IMG/VR virus record: IMGVR_UViG_3300025118_000082 | Span: 1 to 31,845 of that record | DNA length: 31,845 nucleotides | Source: a virus | Direction: 5' to 3' (one strand) | In this document: one piece after another, positions 591 to 24,069 of the stretch | Layout: every line of letters begins with the position of its first letter | How positions within the stretch are numbered: position 1 is the first letter of the stretch | Translations under genes and position numbers: made by a program | Notes under the pieces: model-generated | Databases searched by the model: none | What the model was told of the DNA's origin: nothing | The model's input: the letters and a program-made list of their open reading frames with translations, nothing else

Positions 591-1457
591 TTACGGATTG
601 TTGAAGTTTGCTACTGCACAACTTGTGCTTCCTGCCGCATGACTTAGACAAGCACCGAAAATCACGTCTGCTACGATTGATGTACTAAGGTAATCAATAT
701 CGTAACTCGACTGAACTCTCGGGCTTAGTTGCATCGCCATGTAAACCGCTTCCCGCTTGAACAGGGAAGCCGTCTCGTCGCCCGTACCGCCATCGTCGTC
801 CCAATCTGTGGATACAAATGTTGGGACACCATAGACCATACCCACAGCACCCGAAGCGTTCGGGTTCTGAGCATCACCCCTTCTGGAAGCATCGTAGAAG
901 TCCTGTAATGAGAGGGCACTCATATACGAAGCGGGGGAGCAATACAAGAAAGCATCTCCGTCCGTGTAAGAATGACCCGCATCAAGGAAACTTTGAAGTC
1001 CGCTTCTAATAAGGGCGGTGGTGAAGGTATTATCCGTACCCAGCGTTACATCATTCCCAGTAGCCGCTTGGATCACGCTTACCGCAATATAGTTCTCGAC
1101 GAACTTTGCGATAGAATAACCCATGCTTTTCGCATACATACCAAAAAGGTCAGCATTTTCCTGGACCTTTACGATGTCGCCTATGCGTTTTGCTTCGTAG
1201 GCGTGTTGGTCTACAGAGAGATCAACCTTACCATCCGTGTTCGCACCATAGGTAACAGCCGAGCCAGAGGACAATGAAGCCGCTGTCTCTTCGGTTACTT
1301 TTGGAACGTGGATAGTATCGCCACCTGCCGAAACCATGCTTGATAGATCGGTTACCTGATTACGTAACTGGAAAGCCCGTTCTGCATAATCAAGGATACC
1401 GTCTGACCACATTTCGGGAATGAAGTTGGCTGCAGTAGTTAATGTTACTTCTGCCAT
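591..1457 (-). CDS. Major capsid protein
   Basis: The 288-residue product begins MAEVTLTTAANFIPEMWSDG and has the composition and length of a HK97-fold coat protein without a delta domain: an N-terminal region on how subunits enter the shell (FIPEMWSDGILDYAERAF), a central IGDIVKVQENADLFGMYAKSMGYSIAKFVE-type spine helix region (about residues 92-122) and a C-terminal segment rich in beta structure. It resembles the P22-coat/gp5-like major capsid family of marine siphoviruses. The preceding gene looks like a scaffold, which fits a coat protein assembled on a separate scaffold. A TAGGAATT ribosome binding site lies just upstream. Identity as the coat protein rests on family resemblance and on position after portal, head morphogenesis and scaffold. 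Confidence 0.85.
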   Translation of the reverse strand: MAEVTLTTAANFIPEMWSDGILDYAERAFQLRNQVTDLSSMVSAGGDTIHVPKVTEETAASLSSGSAVTYGANTDGKVDLSVDQHAYEAKRIGDIVKVQENADLFGMYAKSMGYSIAKFVENYIAVSVIQAATGNDVTLGTDNTFTTALIRSGLQSFLDAGHSYTDGDAFLYCSPASYMSALSLQDFYDASRRGDAQNPNASGAVGMVYGVPTFVSTDWDDDGGTGDETASLFKREAVYMAMQLSPRVQSSYDIDYLSTSIVADVIFGACLSHAAGSTSCAVANFNNP

Positions 1458-2547: not shown

Positions 2548-3328
2548 TTAATTGTTGAAGGGGAGTTTGTGGCGTTTGCCATTTCCCTTCATCCTGTTTT
2601 GATGTGATTCTATTCTTCGCTCCAGATTGATCTAACAATTCAGAAGAAGCAGCTTCGATAGCGGTCCACCTGTGGCGGCAATTAAATCCTCCACCATCCA
2701 CGAATGAGCCAGGGTAAGATGATTCGATTTCATCCTGTGTTAATTTCCCTGCACTCGCCATCTCCAGACAAATATCCCGAGTCTTATCATCAACGGGGCC
2801 TTCGTAAATAAACTTCTGGCTTGATGGTAAGCCCCGAGCCATCTCAGCATTAACAGTACGGCTGAAAGTATTGAGGGATGTATTGACTAACGTCTTTGCA
2901 TGGTCTGGCCTGACGATCTCCTTAAGGGCGTTGAGCATCTGAGTATCACTTGCCCCTGATAAAACTTTGCGTCCTAATTCCTGTTTGATAAGATTGGCTT
3001 GATACCCCGCTTGTTTCATAAAGGTCGCTTTATCAATGGCCACCATAGATTGCAACATTGGTTCTGTTACGGATCCATACATTTTCATGTTGGCGAGAAC
3101 ACCCGTTTCGTATCTCGCCATTAGATTATCGATGTCAGCTGCAAACCCCACATCTGATAAAATAAATTGTTCCATATCAATAGCGGATAAAGCGAGATAG
3201 ATTTCATTGCTTACCAATCCTTGCTTTCTCATATCCACGATAGCGTTGACCAAAGAGACCTCCATAGCCTCTACCGCTTTGGCAAATTCAATACCTGCTA
3301 TTTCTATTTCTTTTTGTACGTTAGGCAA
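2540..3328 (-). CDS. Head morphogenesis protein (phage Mu F / SPP1 gp7-like)
   Basis: This 262-residue protein has the conserved C-terminal signature of the Mu F/SPP1 gp7 family: a 'YEGPVDDKTRDICLEM' segment (about residues 174-189), then 'GGGFNCRHRW' (about 212-221), with paired Cys and His residues. Members associate with the portal and enter the head in a few copies, affecting assembly or DNA ejection. The N-terminal part is helical (AGIEFAKAVEAMEVSLVNAI). It overlaps the portal gene by 8 nt, the usual portal-then-gp7 order. Family identification is firm; the precise function in this phage is inferred. Confidence 0.85.
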   Translation of the reverse strand: MPNVQKEIEIAGIEFAKAVEAMEVSLVNAIVDMRKQGLVSNEIYLALSAIDMEQFILSDVGFAADIDNLMARYETGVLANMKMYGSVTEPMLQSMVAIDKATFMKQAGYQANLIKQELGRKVLSGASDTQMLNALKEIVRPDHAKTLVNTSLNTFSRTVNAEMARGLPSSQKFIYEGPVDDKTRDICLEMASAGKLTQDEIESSYPGSFVDGGGFNCRHRWTAIEAASSELLDQSGAKNRITSKQDEGKWQTPQTPLQQLSG

Positions 3329-6244: not shown

Positions 6245-7381
6245 TTAACAACGTACGGATTCCATCCTCAAAGCTTCCTTCCCTGTAAATTCTTCCCATC
6301 TCTTAACAATCACATCGCAGTAATGCGGATCAATCTCCATGCCGTAACACTTACGGTTCGTCTTTTCACAAGCGATTAGCGTTGAACCAGATCCGAGGAA
6401 AACATCCAAAACATTGCTGCTTGTCTTTGTTTGTGGGACAATTAATTCTTGTAATAATTCGACAGGTTTCGGGCAAGTGTGGACTTCTCTAATCCCATCA
6501 CCACGATTTGCTTTAATTTCAAATGTATCCCATTTATATTTTTCATTCACTTTTCCAAATATAAAAATCGGTTCACTTTTCCTTAAATGAAATGCACGTC
6601 CACCGCTTTGTTTTGTATTATCAAACCACACCATTTCATCATAAGGATTTTTAGAATACCAAAAAGGTTTATATTTCCACCCTGTTGTAATAATTACTAT
6701 ATCTGAAAAGGATTTAAGAACATTCCAAAATGATTCACAAAAATTGAGATATTCACTCCCTTGTTCGTCTCTATGGGAATTGTATTCGTAGCCTATGCCA
6801 TAAGGTGGATCAGTAAAAACCATATCAACCTTCCCGCCATCCATCAATCTTTCAACATCTTCCTTCTTTGTCGCATCCCCGCACAGGACTCGATGTTCCC
6901 CCAAAAGCCACAAATCCCCTGCCTGAGTAACCGCTTCCTCAACTTCGGGAATTTCATCATCTTCAATCAGTCCTTCGGTGGGTTCATCCATCCAGAATTG
7001 GAGTTCATCTTCCGTGAACCCCCACTCTGTCAGTTCCCCCACATCAAAGTAATTCGCCAGAGCATCGTAATCCCACTCCCCTACATTACGATTCAGCCTG
7101 ACGTTCAGTTCTTTCTCTTGGTTCAGATCAAGACTCAGTTCAACACAAGGGACTTTCTCAATCCCCATGTCTTTGGCTATTCTCAATCTTTGGTGTCCCC
7201 CGATCACGATATTCTCCCGATCTGGATGCTTGTTAATGATAACAGGATCAACCAGGCCAAACCTCTCCATTGAATCACGGAGACTCTTGTACTGGTCTTT
7301 GGTGAGTTGCCGAGGATTGTATTCGGCGAAGATTAATGATTCTACAGGATGGTAAACTGTTTTGAGTTGTCCATTCTCCAT
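6245..7381 (-). CDS. ParB-like domain fused to a beta-class DNA methyltransferase
   Basis: The 378-residue protein has two parts. Residues 1-130 are a ParB/Srx-type domain, with YNPRQL (21-26) and GGHQRLRIAK (61-70), the nucleotide-binding ParB motif. Residues about 150-370 are an amino-methyltransferase with TDPPYG (190-195) before the SAM-binding DVFLGSGST (326-334). That order (motif IV before motif I) is the beta class, which methylates adenine N6 or cytosine N4. The fusion is known in phages and may protect DNA from host restriction or help mark DNA for packaging, since TerS follows after 22 nt. A perfect 14-bp palindrome covers its ribosome binding site. No partner nuclease gene is visible. 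Confidence 0.9.
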   Translation of the reverse strand: MENGQLKTVYHPVESLIFAEYNPRQLTKDQYKSLRDSMERFGLVDPVIINKHPDRENIVIGGHQRLRIAKDMGIEKVPCVELSLDLNQEKELNVRLNRNVGEWDYDALANYFDVGELTEWGFTEDELQFWMDEPTEGLIEDDEIPEVEEAVTQAGDLWLLGEHRVLCGDATKKEDVERLMDGGKVDMVFTDPPYGIGYEYNSHRDEQGSEYLNFCESFWNVLKSFSDIVIITTGWKYKPFWYSKNPYDEMVWFDNTKQSGGRAFHLRKSEPIFIFGKVNEKYKWDTFEIKANRGDGIREVHTCPKPVELLQELIVPQTKTSSNVLDVFLGSGSTLIACEKTNRKCYGMEIDPHYCDVIVKRWEEFTGKEALRMESVRC

Positions 7382-8673: not shown

Positions 8674-8838
8674 TCAAGTTATCCTTTCTCTCCCCTTTGA
8701 ACAGGCGTAACAATACCTGGGCGGAGACTGTTTTATCAAAACGAGCCTTGCCTTTATAGGTTTACCACATTTTCTGCAACGAAATTTTGACATTTTTGTA
8801 TATGGATAATGAACCCCCTTAAATTTCTTCAGCATCAT
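8674..8838 (-). CDS. Zinc-ribbon mini-protein (54 aa)
   Basis: The ORF begins MMLKKFKGVHYPYTKMSKFR and contains CRKC and CYAC pairs (about residues 20-23 and 42-45), enough for a one-zinc ribbon. The start (ATGATG at 8838/8835) overlaps the stop of the methyltransferase gene and is preceded by an excellent GGGAGG site. An internal ATG (MSKFRCRKC) would give a 39-residue form. The stop is adjacent to the CTG of the resolvase. Role unknown; it belongs to a set of small zinc-ribbon proteins in this early region. Confidence 0.7.
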   Translation of the reverse strand: MMLKKFKGVHYPYTKMSKFRCRKCGKPIKARLVLIKQSPPRYCYACSKGRERIT

Positions 8839-9887
8839 TTCCCTCCCGATTCAAATAATTCATGCTGATCGAAACGTCTCTCAGCTATCTTTATGTATTC
8901 AGGATTGAGTTCAATCCCAATCCATTTACGGCCAAGTCTTTGAGCTACCCATCCTGTTGTCCCACTGCCGAAGAATGGATCTAAAACAATATCACCCTCA
9001 CTACTACCAGCCTTGATACATAATTCAGGCAATTTGGGTGGAAATACGGCGAAATGGGCTTCTTTGTAAGGCTTGGTGTTGATTTTCCAGACAGATTTTT
9101 TGTTAGCATTTATCCCACAAATCGGATTTCCGTCTTTATCAAAGTAACCCTTATGCCCTTTTATTTTTAGACCATCACCAGCCATATTGCTTTGCCAATT
9201 TTTACCACCAACAGCTTTCATTGGTCCATTTGTTTTTTTCGGTACACGATCTGACCCTTTTTGATTATCTATATCCTGCAATAGTCTTGCGATTGATTCA
9301 TCTTTCAACGGTGTCTTAATCGCATCCGCATCATAGAAATACTTGGCTGATTTGGTTAACAAAAATATATATTCGTGGGATTTAGTACATCTATCTTGGA
9401 CCGATTCAGGCATTGGATTAGGCTTATGCCAAATAATGTCCTGTCTTAAATACCATCCATCAGCCTGTAATGCGAAAGCAACACGCCACGGGATTCCAAC
9501 AAGGTCTTTTGGTTTAAGCCCTTTGACATTAGTTGGTATACCAATTTTATCTTTATTTTTTGCTGGTTTACCAAATTCTGTATGTTTCTTGTAATACTCG
9601 CTATTTTTATTACCAGCCTTCCCACTTCCATTATAACTATCCCCCAAATTCAGCCATACAGTTCCATCGTGTTTTAATACTCGCTTTATCTGTCTAAATA
9701 CTTCTACCATCTTCTCAACATATTCTTCAGGCGTTTCTTCAAGACCGAGTTGGCCATCCTGTCCATAATCCCTTAATCCCCAATATGGTGGCGATGTTAC
9801 TACGCATTGAATAGTCTCGTTTGGAATCTCTCCCAACTTTTCAAGAACGTCTCCTGCTAATATCTGATTCTCAGCGTGAAAATCCAT
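8835..9887 (-). CDS. Beta-class DNA methyltransferase (N4-cytosine or N6-adenine)
   Basis: The 350-residue enzyme starts MDFHAENQILAGDVLEKLGE, has TSPPYW early (about 31-36) and the SAM-binding DPFFGSGTTG late (about 303-312), followed by RKWIGIELNPEY. This is the beta-group order seen in M.PvuII/DpnA-like enzymes; SPPY is commoner in N4-cytosine enzymes but does not decide it. ATG at 9887 is preferred to the longer frame from 9914 because the extra residues lie inside the upstream gene; a GAG lies about 8 nt before it. It is a second methyltransferase besides the ParB fusion, again without a restriction partner, so self-protection is the simplest role. Confidence 0.9.
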   Translation of the reverse strand: MDFHAENQILAGDVLEKLGEIPNETIQCVVTSPPYWGLRDYGQDGQLGLEETPEEYVEKMVEVFRQIKRVLKHDGTVWLNLGDSYNGSGKAGNKNSEYYKKHTEFGKPAKNKDKIGIPTNVKGLKPKDLVGIPWRVAFALQADGWYLRQDIIWHKPNPMPESVQDRCTKSHEYIFLLTKSAKYFYDADAIKTPLKDESIARLLQDIDNQKGSDRVPKKTNGPMKAVGGKNWQSNMAGDGLKIKGHKGYFDKDGNPICGINANKKSVWKINTKPYKEAHFAVFPPKLPELCIKAGSSEGDIVLDPFFGSGTTGWVAQRLGRKWIGIELNPEYIKIAERRFDQHELFESGGK

Positions 9888-10212
9888 TAGTCTCAAACTC
9901 GAAATCCTTCTCAAAATTCTCCCGTTCCACCGCCTCCTTCACGCTCTTGAATCCATCAAGTCCCGCAATATGTGAGTCTGTGGGGAACCAATGCCGCCAT
10001 TGACCCTTCACTGAAATATAATAGAATAGAGCAACAGCCAACTTTCCTGATGTTTTTACAAATACAACACTGGCCATCTGGTCTGAATGGGGAATGATCT
10101 TCTGTACCGCGAAAGATTCTTTTAAATAATTGTGGTCCCTGTCTGTCCGGCTATATTGGGCGGCGGCTTCTGATGCAGCCCGTTTGAGTGCGATTTTATG
10201 AGATTTGGTCAT
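9871..10212 (-). CDS. Conserved-looking phage protein of unknown function (113 aa)
   Basis: The protein begins MTKSHKIALKRAASEAAAQY and has a compact central beta-rich part (VVFVKTSGKLAVALFYYISV, about residues 49-68) followed by GQWRHWFPTDSHIAGLDGFK. 'KTSGKLA..LFY......W..FPTDSH..G' is a pattern I associate with a small phage protein found beside methyltransferases and replication genes, but no function is known. It overlaps the 81-residue gene upstream by 4 nt (ATGA) and the methyltransferase downstream by 17 nt. Confidence 0.7.
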   Translation of the reverse strand: MTKSHKIALKRAASEAAAQYSRTDRDHNYLKESFAVQKIIPHSDQMASVVFVKTSGKLAVALFYYISVKGQWRHWFPTDSHIAGLDGFKSVKEAVERENFEKDFEFETNGFSR

Positions 10213-14460: not shown

Positions 14461-14566
14461 TCTTACCCCTCTTTTTACCGCCCCTCTTCCACGCCTTAGA
14501 TGCGTTCTTTGTGGACCCGTGCCTACGCTTGTATTCGATGCGATATAATTTCTCAGCTAATTCCAT
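14456..14566 (-). CDS. Basic mini-protein (36 aa)
   Basis: The ORF begins [20 protein letters not shown] and ends in a Lys/Arg/Gly-rich tail ([11 protein letters not shown]). The ATG lies inside the last codons of the C5-methylase-like gene and the TAA overlaps the start of the SEC-C gene, so it occupies the slot between them without gap. The basic tail suggests nucleic-acid binding. Supported by packing only. Confidence 0.5.
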
Positions 14567-15144
14567 TGTGTGGCCATAGCATCGGCTATTCCCTGATAGG
14601 TTTCTGATCGCAATTTCCATCTGTCCGCTGAAGGACCGAGTTTGTTTTGCCCACTTGGGGTTTGATTTGCATACCGATCTTTTGTAATTATATCAGTTGG
14701 GATTAATTCGGGAAGATTCTTCAGCCAGAGGCAAGTCTTTTTACTGGCATCGTGACCAAATTCATAGGGTTGAATTATCTGGTTGGGCTTTCTCCATTTA
14801 GTTGACATGATGCCGACAGGATTCTCAATGGCTATCTTTGGGATCTCGGCATTTGCCAGAGACATGAAAAAATCTATCCCCTGTTGCTGTCTGCCATCGG
14901 CACGTTTTTCTGGAAACCATCTCGCTCCCGATACAGCAAGATGGGTACAAGGCGGGAAGGCAATCATTAAATCCCATCCGTTTGTTCTATAATCTGAAAG
15001 AATAGCCAAAACATCGCCAATATGATGAACACCATGTTTCGGGTTATCACTTGGGAGAAGATCACAAGACATGGCGAAATGACCTTTCTTTGCAAAAGCA
15101 TCCCTGACCTTACCGCTATATTCACAGGCAATTAAAACTCTCAT
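14557..15144 (-). CDS. C5-cytosine-methyltransferase-like protein
   Basis: The protein begins MRVLIACEYSGKVRDAFAKK, an N-terminal SAM-site-like strand, and has FPPC (residues 63-66), the catalytic-Cys PPC motif, and IENP (106-109), the motif VI position. At 195 residues it is much shorter than full C5 methyltransferases and seems to lack a target-recognition domain, like a known family of short phage proteins annotated 'DNA cytosine methyltransferase'. Activity and target are unknown. Of ATGATG at 15147/15144 the second is preferred (AGGAG at 6 nt). It is the first gene after the 465-nt non-coding hub and so heads the early operon. Confidence 0.75.
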   Translation of the reverse strand: MRVLIACEYSGKVRDAFAKKGHFAMSCDLLPSDNPKHGVHHIGDVLAILSDYRTNGWDLMIAFPPCTHLAVSGARWFPEKRADGRQQQGIDFFMSLANAEIPKIAIENPVGIMSTKWRKPNQIIQPYEFGHDASKKTCLWLKNLPELIPTDIITKDRYANQTPSGQNKLGPSADRWKLRSETYQGIADAMATQWN

Positions 15145-15308
15145 CATTTGCTCCTACTAAACGAAACCCTCCAGGACAAAGATGAAACAGAGATAAGAAG
15201 TCCCGAAGGGCTGAATTTTGTTATTTTATTATTTAGTTTCATCTTGAAAACAATATAACAAATAATACTATATAAAATCCATAAAAATTATCCAGATAAT
15301 AAAATAAC
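15145..15308 (-). promoter_or_regulatory. Leader of the early operon, with a weak promoter candidate
   Basis: This AT-rich stretch before the early operon contains TGTTATATT (15260-15252 on the minus strand), an extended -10-like sequence, and one arm of a long inverted repeat. No good -35 is visible. A CCCTTCGGG mini-hairpin lies at about 15202-15212. Transcription of the early operon probably starts here or at the upstream site near 15419. Confidence 0.3.
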
Positions 15309-22313: not shown

Positions 22314-22826
22314 CTATTCATAATCAGGTTCTGAGGACATACATGAGAATTGATAATTGACAACATTAAGATTCGGCTTATCAGATTCGTTCTCTCTTAA
22401 CGAAGGGTTATAATCAATGTCGGTGATCTTCCCATCGTGCCAGATATATTGAGTAATCAAATTCCAGTAGTCAATGCTATAAGCCCAACGAGTCAGGTAG
22501 GTTGAGAATGTTGTCTCCGCATTATCTGGCGAGGGATAGTTCTTGAACAGCCGCATTAATCTTTCCGTTGAATTGGAAAGAAATTCGTGATGCGTATGCC
22601 GAGCGTAGCCCTCTCGGAATAAGTAATATCTTATATCAAATATGTAACGCCGTAAAAGCCCTCCCGCTAACGGCTGAATATCCCCGACTGAATTAAGGAA
22701 GATGTTAAAGAACGTGGAACTGTGAAAAGCATAGTCCTTATCAAAATGAACAGCGACCTTGAACTCATTAAAGATAAGTTCCTGCATCTTGTTCATGATC
22801 CGCTTTCCCTGATCCAGATAAATCAT
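22314..22826 (-). CDS. Putative neck or tail-terminator protein (170 aa)
   Basis: The protein begins MIYLDQGKRIMNKMQELIFN and consists mainly of helices and aromatic beta stretches (YAFHSSTFFNIFLNSVGDIQ, YLTRWAYSIDYWNLITQYIW). Its ATG overlaps the stop of the intron-split gene (ATGA), and the tail tube gene follows 57 codons later. By position it should be a joint or tail-terminator protein that caps the tube; no sequence motif proves it. Confidence 0.5.
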   Translation of the reverse strand: MIYLDQGKRIMNKMQELIFNEFKVAVHFDKDYAFHSSTFFNIFLNSVGDIQPLAGGLLRRYIFDIRYYLFREGYARHTHHEFLSNSTERLMRLFKNYPSPDNAETTFSTYLTRWAYSIDYWNLITQYIWHDGKITDIDYNPSLRENESDKPNLNVVNYQFSCMSSEPDYE

Positions 22827-24069
22827 CGGCGTTCCACCTGGATAGTTCTAACTGGAGATCCCGCTTCTGGAATATCACTTGAGCATTCTACCTCCCAAGT
22901 GTCATTTGTTGTCGCCACGCCATAACTCCACCGAGCCTCCAAGCCATGCCCGATTCCCTGATAGCCTCCCGTGATTGCCTCGCTTGAGACAACCGCCTGA
23001 GTCTGTAATCCTGTTGAACTGGAAACATAGGAACTGTAGGTGACGGATGTATTAGCCGACCCCTTTGTTAAGGTCCCCCCCGCACTGATGATAACCTTGA
23101 TGAGATCATCTGCTGTTGCCCGTCCCCTTACATCTATGATGTTTGAGGTCGAACTCGAATTGATACTTACCCGCTTGACGATCCCCTGATTGTGTCGCAT
23201 TGATTTATCATGCCACATTGACAGTTCGCCAGATTTGATATGGTCGAGCCATCCCGTTCCCTCTGGATTGTAAGCCAAAGACTGAAGATAATCAGCCCTA
23301 TCAGGATCATAAGGTCGGGCGAGTTCAGCACAGGCAAGGACAGCATTACATTTAATTATCATGTCATCCCACGAAGCCCCGCTGACTCCCTGAGCCCCAA
23401 CCCCTAATCTTTTATGGATCGGTCTGTTAATGTAGTTGCGTACGAAGGAGGCGGCTCTTGAAAGGGCAGTTTCCTTGAGTGTCTGGTATGATCTGCCGCC
23501 TTCAATGGTATGGTGTGTTAGTGGGTTGTTGTCGCTCCTTACGTAGAGCGTATCCGTATCTGAATCGTAGAACCATTCCCCGTCAGTATCATTGGAAACC
23601 AAAGTTGAGAGGTCTGCAATAGCATCGCCTAAATCAAAGTTATCCCTGAAAAGCGTGTCAATCGTTCCTGTTGAACCCGCTCGATAAGTATTACTCTGAT
23701 AAAAAATCCAACCCGTTATGAGTATTTTACGGTCAAAAGCCTGTATCGAATGTTAGAGTGAGTTTATTATCTCACATCTCCGCATTTCTACGGAGTATCG
23801 GCATATCTTTTCATCCCAGAAGGATGTTGGGAACTCGTGGCAAGATTATATTCTTCGTTAAAAGTTTCACTTGCTATGCTCTGCCCCTGACAAGAGTTTT
23901 GCCCCTTGCCTTCGGTTCGGGTTATCATGGCTTTCGCTTTAGACTCCCCGCTTAATTTCCCAATCATGATAATCATAGTTGCCTATGAGAACGACACACA
24001 GATTGTATCTGGAATAAAATACTCAAGGTCAGTAGTGGCGTTAGCGTAATACTCGTCATAAGTACTCAT
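22823..24069 (-). CDS. Putative head-tail connector/neck protein, split by an intron (exon 1 24069-24007; exon 2 23746-22823)
   Basis: Joining the exons gives a 328-residue protein. Exon 1 (21 codons) starts at an ATG with AGGGGG 7 nt upstream and ends ...LEYFIPD. Exon 2 begins IQAFDRKILITGWIFYQSNT and contains GEWFYDSDTDTLYVRS and a helical RAASFVRNYINRPIHKRLGV. Exon 2 alone has no ATG/GTG/TTG for its first 48 codons, and starting at the first TTG (23602) would discard a clearly protein-like stretch. 'W(F/Y)YDxxxDxLYV' blocks occur in phage neck/connector-like proteins, and it lies between endolysin/phosphoesterase genes and the tail tube. The splice is a structural inference. Confidence 0.7.
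23747..24006 (-). other. 260-nt group I intron candidate (no ORF of its own)
   Basis: Reading the minus strand, the pieces of a group I core occur in the right order. P1 GAU|ACA with UGUGUC has a U.G pair at the splice site (U24007.G23995). P2 is UCAUAG-GCAA-CUAUGA (23988-23973). P3 is UUGGGAA (23963-23957) with UUCCCAA (23833-23827); P4 CGGG (23950-23947) with CCCG (23921-23918); P6 GGCAAG (23910-23905) with CUUGUC (23894-23889); P7 GCAUA (23879-23875) with UAUGC (23805-23801). Extra hairpin GCAAG/CUUGC lies between P7 and P3, as in subgroup IA. P8 is CAUCC/GGAUG (23826-23812), then P9 CUCCG/CGGAG and P9.1 GUGAG/CUCAC. The intron ends in G (23747). P10: exon AUACAGG pairs with intron UCUGUGU (24002-23996). 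Confidence 0.85.

Follow-up and report, generated by a model that had tools for sequence, protein, structure and literature searches.

A probable endonuclease-free group I intron in a putative viral neck gene, with relatives in phage capsid genes that the standard Rfam model misses

Endonuclease-free introns in structural genes of phages are already known as a kind. The mycobacteriophages BAKA and Optimus carry an endonuclease-free intron of 265 bp in a minor tail gene, confirmed by RT-PCR, and in LittleE an intron is located in the capsid gene (PMC3706429). In Twort the orf142 gene, which encodes the tail tube, contains several group I introns close together, and the survey of Bastillevirinae introns describes the Rfam model as incomplete and cautions that phage introns may escape models (PMC11878797).

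In this work, we are presenting a comparative analysis of a 260-nt insert on the minus strand of a viral window, that is the whole 31.8-kb stretch of DNA analysed. With a probability of roughly 0.96, as judged from sequence, the insert is a compact group I intron of the IA type without an endonuclease, located after codon 21 of a probable head-tail connector gene, from whose transcript it would be spliced out. By its published description the BAKA/Optimus intron is alike in being compact and endonuclease-free, in its location in a structural gene, in the U before it and the G at its end, and in having intron-less relatives, while the phages concerned belong to a different group and the paper assigns the ribozyme to no subgroup. 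The Twort introns likewise belong to group I and interrupt a virion gene; unlike the lineage described here, they are found by Rfam and missed by our lineage model (at most 15 bits), so they represent another branch. The original prediction regarded an intron in a neck gene as unusual, a view weakened by the introns already published from genes for capsid, tail and tail tube (PMC3706429, PMC11878797). What is new is the lineage beyond the reach of Rfam, of which we found no description in capsid genes in the open-access literature.

DNA alignment of the window with L001, the sole close relative that an IMG/VR scan with the exon 2 protein turned up (identity 86% across the full 307 residues), gave one clean gap of exactly 260 nt (23747-24006), flanked by CCAGAT and ATACAGG; at this site L001 is uninterrupted (...GAGTATTTCATCCCAGAT|ATTCAGGCTTTCGATAGG...). 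The boundary of the insert is free to shift by 1 nt only, and the chosen placement puts a U directly before the insert and a G at its 3' end. Downstream of 23746 the reading frame runs for 48 codons without a start codon of its own, while a 21-codon ORF preceded by AAGGGGGC is placed exactly 260 nt upstream of exon 2. The length of the insert is not divisible by 3, and unspliced reading meets a stop after 28 codons; removal of the insert results in a single 328-codon frame, 283 residues of which are identical to L001. A second scan, with an alignment, added two more relatives, L232 (66% identical) and L231 (52%), both contiguous at ...PDIQAFDRK..., and the IQAFDRKI stretch adjoining the insertion site is identical in all four proteins. 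Relatives with residues encoded by the insert had been named beforehand as one of the observations able to overturn the reading; none of the three intron-less relatives carries such residues, and the proposed in-frame joining across an interrupting insert is upheld. The 62-codon ORF inside the insert (23788-23976) is broken by stops or shifted frames in most of 21 homologous introns; it had correctly been called accidental, and its candidacy as an endonuclease was ruled out. Among the window proteins scanned (small ORFs in part) no homing endonuclease family was found.

Table 1. Split gene and predicted intron elements (window positions, all on the minus strand)
Feature	Position	Strand	Basis
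Exon 1, 21 codons MSTYDEYYANATTDLEYFIPD, last base U	24007..24069	-	N-terminus matches intron-less L001
Predicted group I intron, 260 nt, IA type, no endonuclease gene	23747..24006	-	insertion vs L001; covariance model R2
Exon 2, 307 codons + stop; likely head-tail connector (neck) protein	22823..23746	-	gene order
P1: exon GAU + intron ACA with UGUGUC (internal guide); U.G at 5' splice site	23993..24009	-	minimum free energy fold
P10 strand UCUGUGU of guide; partner exon 2 AUACAGG (23740-23746); 7 bp, 2 G.U	23996..24002	-	sequence
P2 hairpin CAUAG-GCAA-CUAUG	23974..23987	-	5/5 pairs changed on both sides
P3 5' strand UUGGGAA (3' strand 23827-23833)	23957..23963	-	6/7 pairs changed on both sides
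P4 + P5, variant 11-nt GAAA-tetraloop receptor in P5	23918..23950	-	4/7 pairs covary on both sides; receptor-like motif from alignment
P6 + P6a	23886..23915	-	8/10 pairs changed on both sides
P7 5' strand, bulged A (guanosine-binding site); 3' strand 23800-23805	23875..23881	-	100% of cells paired
P7.1 GCAAG/CUUGC + short P7.2, IA-type insertion, P7-P3 interval	23840..23874	-	covariation
P8 hairpin	23812..23826	-	3/5 pairs changed on both sides
J8/7 AAAAGA	23806..23811	-	4/6 positions invariant across 21 sequences
P9, GAAA tetraloop	23778..23795	-	7/7 pairs changed on both sides
P9.1 hairpin	23758..23775	-	4/5 pairs changed on both sides
Terminal G of intron	23747..23747	-	sequence; exact insertion end

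The elements of the predicted ribozyme are collected in Table 1. Group I is recognised by its pseudoknot of P3 and P7, and subgroup IA by an extra stem, P7.1, placed between these two helices. In the window sequence all core pairs of P3-P8 and P4-P6 form, together with the P3/P7 pseudoknot, and the stems from P1 to P10 all consist of standard pairs. P7 has the composition G-A(bulge)-GCAUA / UAUGC-C, and in the alignment of 21 introns two of its pairs covary and four are invariant, among them the G-C pair beside the bulge. The stems named in the original prediction (P2, P3, P4, P6, P7, P8, P9 and P9.1) pair as described, and all are supported by covariation; so is the GCAAG/CUUGC stem on which the IA assignment was based, with 98.1% of P7.1 cells paired and 4 of 5 pairs covarying (P7.2: 100% paired, 2 of 3 covarying). 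The U.G expected next to the 5' splice site forms in the fold of P1, the final G coincides with the exact end of the insertion relative to L001, and the 7-bp P10 likewise pairs as proposed. The noted weak point, an exon part of P1 of only 3 bp, is real; P1 nevertheless extends 3 bp into the intron, and the same 6-bp fold (GAU.ACA / UGUGUC) forms in isolation.

This anatomy points to GTP-initiated splicing in two steps. The transcript would fold into the P3-P8 and P4-P6 core, a free guanosine would dock in P7 and attack after the exon 1 U, held by P1 as U.G, and the released exon 1 would then attack after the terminal G, with P10 aligning exon 2. The ligated mRNA would encode the full 328-residue protein, and we infer that the phage uses this product.

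Comparative support for the fold came from a 15-base pattern of the P7 region, which retrieved 45 viral loci, many of them with homologous introns. We aligned 21 introns by sequence alone and then scored a hand-written structure including the pseudoknot. Standard pairs occupied 91.8% of the pair cells, and 47 of the 62 pairs had changed on both sides; the covariation score was 0.504 versus 0.18 in shuffled alignments (0 of 500 shuffles reached 0.504), and versions of the structure slid along the alignment scored at most 0.12 with less than 40% paired. Shuffling breaks the relatedness among the sequences, while sliding preserves it. Compensatory changes were present in both the P3 and the P7 helix, the latter being fully paired. 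A covariance model (R2) built from 18 relatives, with the window excluded and the structure computed by RNAalifold, gave a single match in the window, on the minus strand and with exactly the ends of the insert (238.6 bits, E 4.1e-72, E-values of this search tool being rough), which agrees with the splice sites originally proposed.

The check with Rfam model RF00028, suggested along with the original prediction, returned no match at the cut-off: the window intron scored 12.1 bits against 50, and an Rfam scan of the window at gathering and relaxed thresholds gave nothing useful. The window-free model thus recognises what RF00028 does not, and the failure extends to the entire lineage. In 44 loci checked, RF00028 recognised none of the 55 lineage copies marked there by models R1 and R2 (8 in cultured phages, 24 and 23 in viral contigs, not all independent); its three matches within these loci all lay at positions other than the lineage copies. 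In a positive control on the Twort orf142 region it detected all three introns. The silence of Rfam therefore reflects what its library lacks.

Homologues of the intron at the DNA level are also present in cultured phages; those of the Aeromonas phages and of Yersinia phage phiR1-37 were detected by DNA comparison (E-values down to 2e-15) and by model R1 (183-202 bits). The homologues are located between pieces of the RNA polymerase gene in Aeromonas phages CF8, PS1, AhC3_1 and ZPAH34 and directly upstream of gyrA (gyrase A) in phiR1-37 (L050, 1411-1659); Listeria phage LIS04 has one upstream of a terminase gene, and in Bacillus phage PJN02 one separates two RecD-like helicase pieces. The introns of the Aeromonas phages and phiR1-37 are thus homologous to that of the window but have other host genes. 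Those of the Aeromonas phages (L048, L049, L053, L054) and of phiR1-37 are unannotated in their records, and in CF8 the flanking genes are listed as hypothetical. The lineage model matched all 75 further viral loci, chosen by a 17-base pattern, and 18 of 63 loci from bacterial or archaeal genomes. One locus at 181.7 bits (L188, 5138-5383) lies on a contig of a Heimdallarchaeota MAG binned as an Asgard archaeon (JABCTC010000034.1), which may be a misbinned phage.

The nearest kin of the window intron reside in major capsid genes of uncultivated phages (e.g. L016, L044, L026, L008, L039, L058, L107), with up to 77% identity over almost the entire intron, a length of roughly 235-260 nt and no endonuclease ORF. 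Their hosts are head genes of the phrog_267 type, some with several introns per gene; a phrog_267 major head protein was identified as host in L107, L058, L072, L026 and L023, and a capsid protein of the SU10 type in L122. Other relatives interrupt a tail-like gene (L129) and a terminase-like gene (L037 and, by exon similarity, L028). The most crowded case is L039 (IMGVR_UViG_3300038752_000092), in which four lineage introns of 240, 254, 245 and 258 nt (1558-1797, 1917-2170, 2699-2943, 3032-3289), each with U before it and G as its last base and none with an endonuclease, split one major capsid gene. Its exons of 54, 119, 528, 88 and 75 coding nt join into a phrog_267 major head protein (E 1.7e-37) of only 288 residues, so intron sequence exceeds coding sequence. 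In L037, L017 and L011 two lineage introns stand nearly back to back in a terminase-large-subunit-like gene (e.g. 1411-1668 and 1690-1952 in L037); either the exon between them would be tiny, or the pair would resemble a twintron. The apparent preference for capsid genes is to be taken as a lead, because the loci were sampled through the intron and not through the genes.

Inspection of the alignment also drew attention to P5 and P9. In L029, L037 and L032 the motif CCUAAG...UAUGG in P5, which we take to be the 11-nt receptor for a GAAA tetraloop, is accompanied on P9 by a GAAA loop. In the window the variant UCUAAA...CAUGA of P5 likewise occurs with a GAAA loop, while the Aeromonas phage introns have a different P5 and other GNRA loops on P9 (GCGA, GUGA, GCAA). 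This would fit a P5-L9 tertiary contact changing in step across the lineage.

On the minus strand the order of genes is endolysin, phosphoesterase, a 64-aa ORF, the host gene, ORFs of 170 and 333 aa, two small ORFs and the tape measure protein, with the terminase and the phrog_267 major head protein elsewhere in the window. A head-tail connector usually occupies this position, which makes the proposed neck gene plausible; the position fits, and gene order is what the label is drawn from, since the host protein had no Pfam or PHROG match and its AlphaFold prediction from two sequences had a pLDDT of 31.6. Relatives of the host gene were not found in annotated phages, plasmids and genomes. The major head protein of the window (591-1457, minus strand) belongs to phrog_267, the family whose genes contain many of the related introns; the lineage model found no intron in this gene. 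The terminase of the window, whose PHROG match begins late in the profile, was considered as a further split gene and rejected, as its open frame runs upstream with a Walker A-like motif. Three DNA methyltransferase-like genes, one with a ParB-like domain, are also present on the minus strand (6245-7381, 8835-9914, 14557-15147).

Several other explanations of the locus have to be weighed. The 3-bp exon pairing in P1 and the absence of an endonuclease for maintenance could speak for a former group I intron that has lost splicing and left the gene broken in the window genome. We hold this to be very improbable, as the core stems, P7, J8/7, the U.G, the terminal G and P10 are all intact, and both exons are open and retain their high identity to L001, which is expected if the spliced product is used. 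A second alternative takes the structured non-coding insert, with matching frames on either side, for a translational bypass element or for mobile DNA of another sort (a MITE or an IStron remnant) that is skipped or tolerated and not spliced out of the RNA. We give this almost no credence: no internal ORF is conserved, the covarying structure, with its pseudoknot and splice-site rules, is a group I one, and homologues occur in many unrelated genes, preceded by U and ending in G wherever junctions were worked out.

Next to no weight goes to the view that the real gene consists of exon 2 only, or of exon 2 read from a non-canonical start, and that the 21-codon ORF is a small gene of its own or has arisen by chance. 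Exon 2 does account for 307 of the 328 codons, but in all three intron-less relatives the exon 1 residues are fused in frame to exon 2, and 20 of the 21 residues are identical in L001. A compact group I intron within a probable connector gene therefore stands as the preferred reading.

Comparison, beyond folding alone, thus supports a small group I ribozyme in a likely virion gene. We lean, with considerable reserve, towards placing it in a large and as yet unrecognised lineage of compact group I introns of IA-like type, most of them lacking an endonuclease gene, that have spread among virion genes of uncultivated phages, above all the major capsid gene, at many sites and with up to four per gene, and that standard RNA annotation overlooks entirely. 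Because the standard Rfam model makes no call, genes split by this lineage get annotated as broken or as two ORFs, and a lineage-specific model would close the gap. For copies that lack an endonuclease, homologous recombination or an endonuclease provided in trans are possible routes of spread. The crowding in capsid genes opens an old question to testing: what lets introns without an endonuclease persist in the phage genes of highest expression, and by what route they travel.
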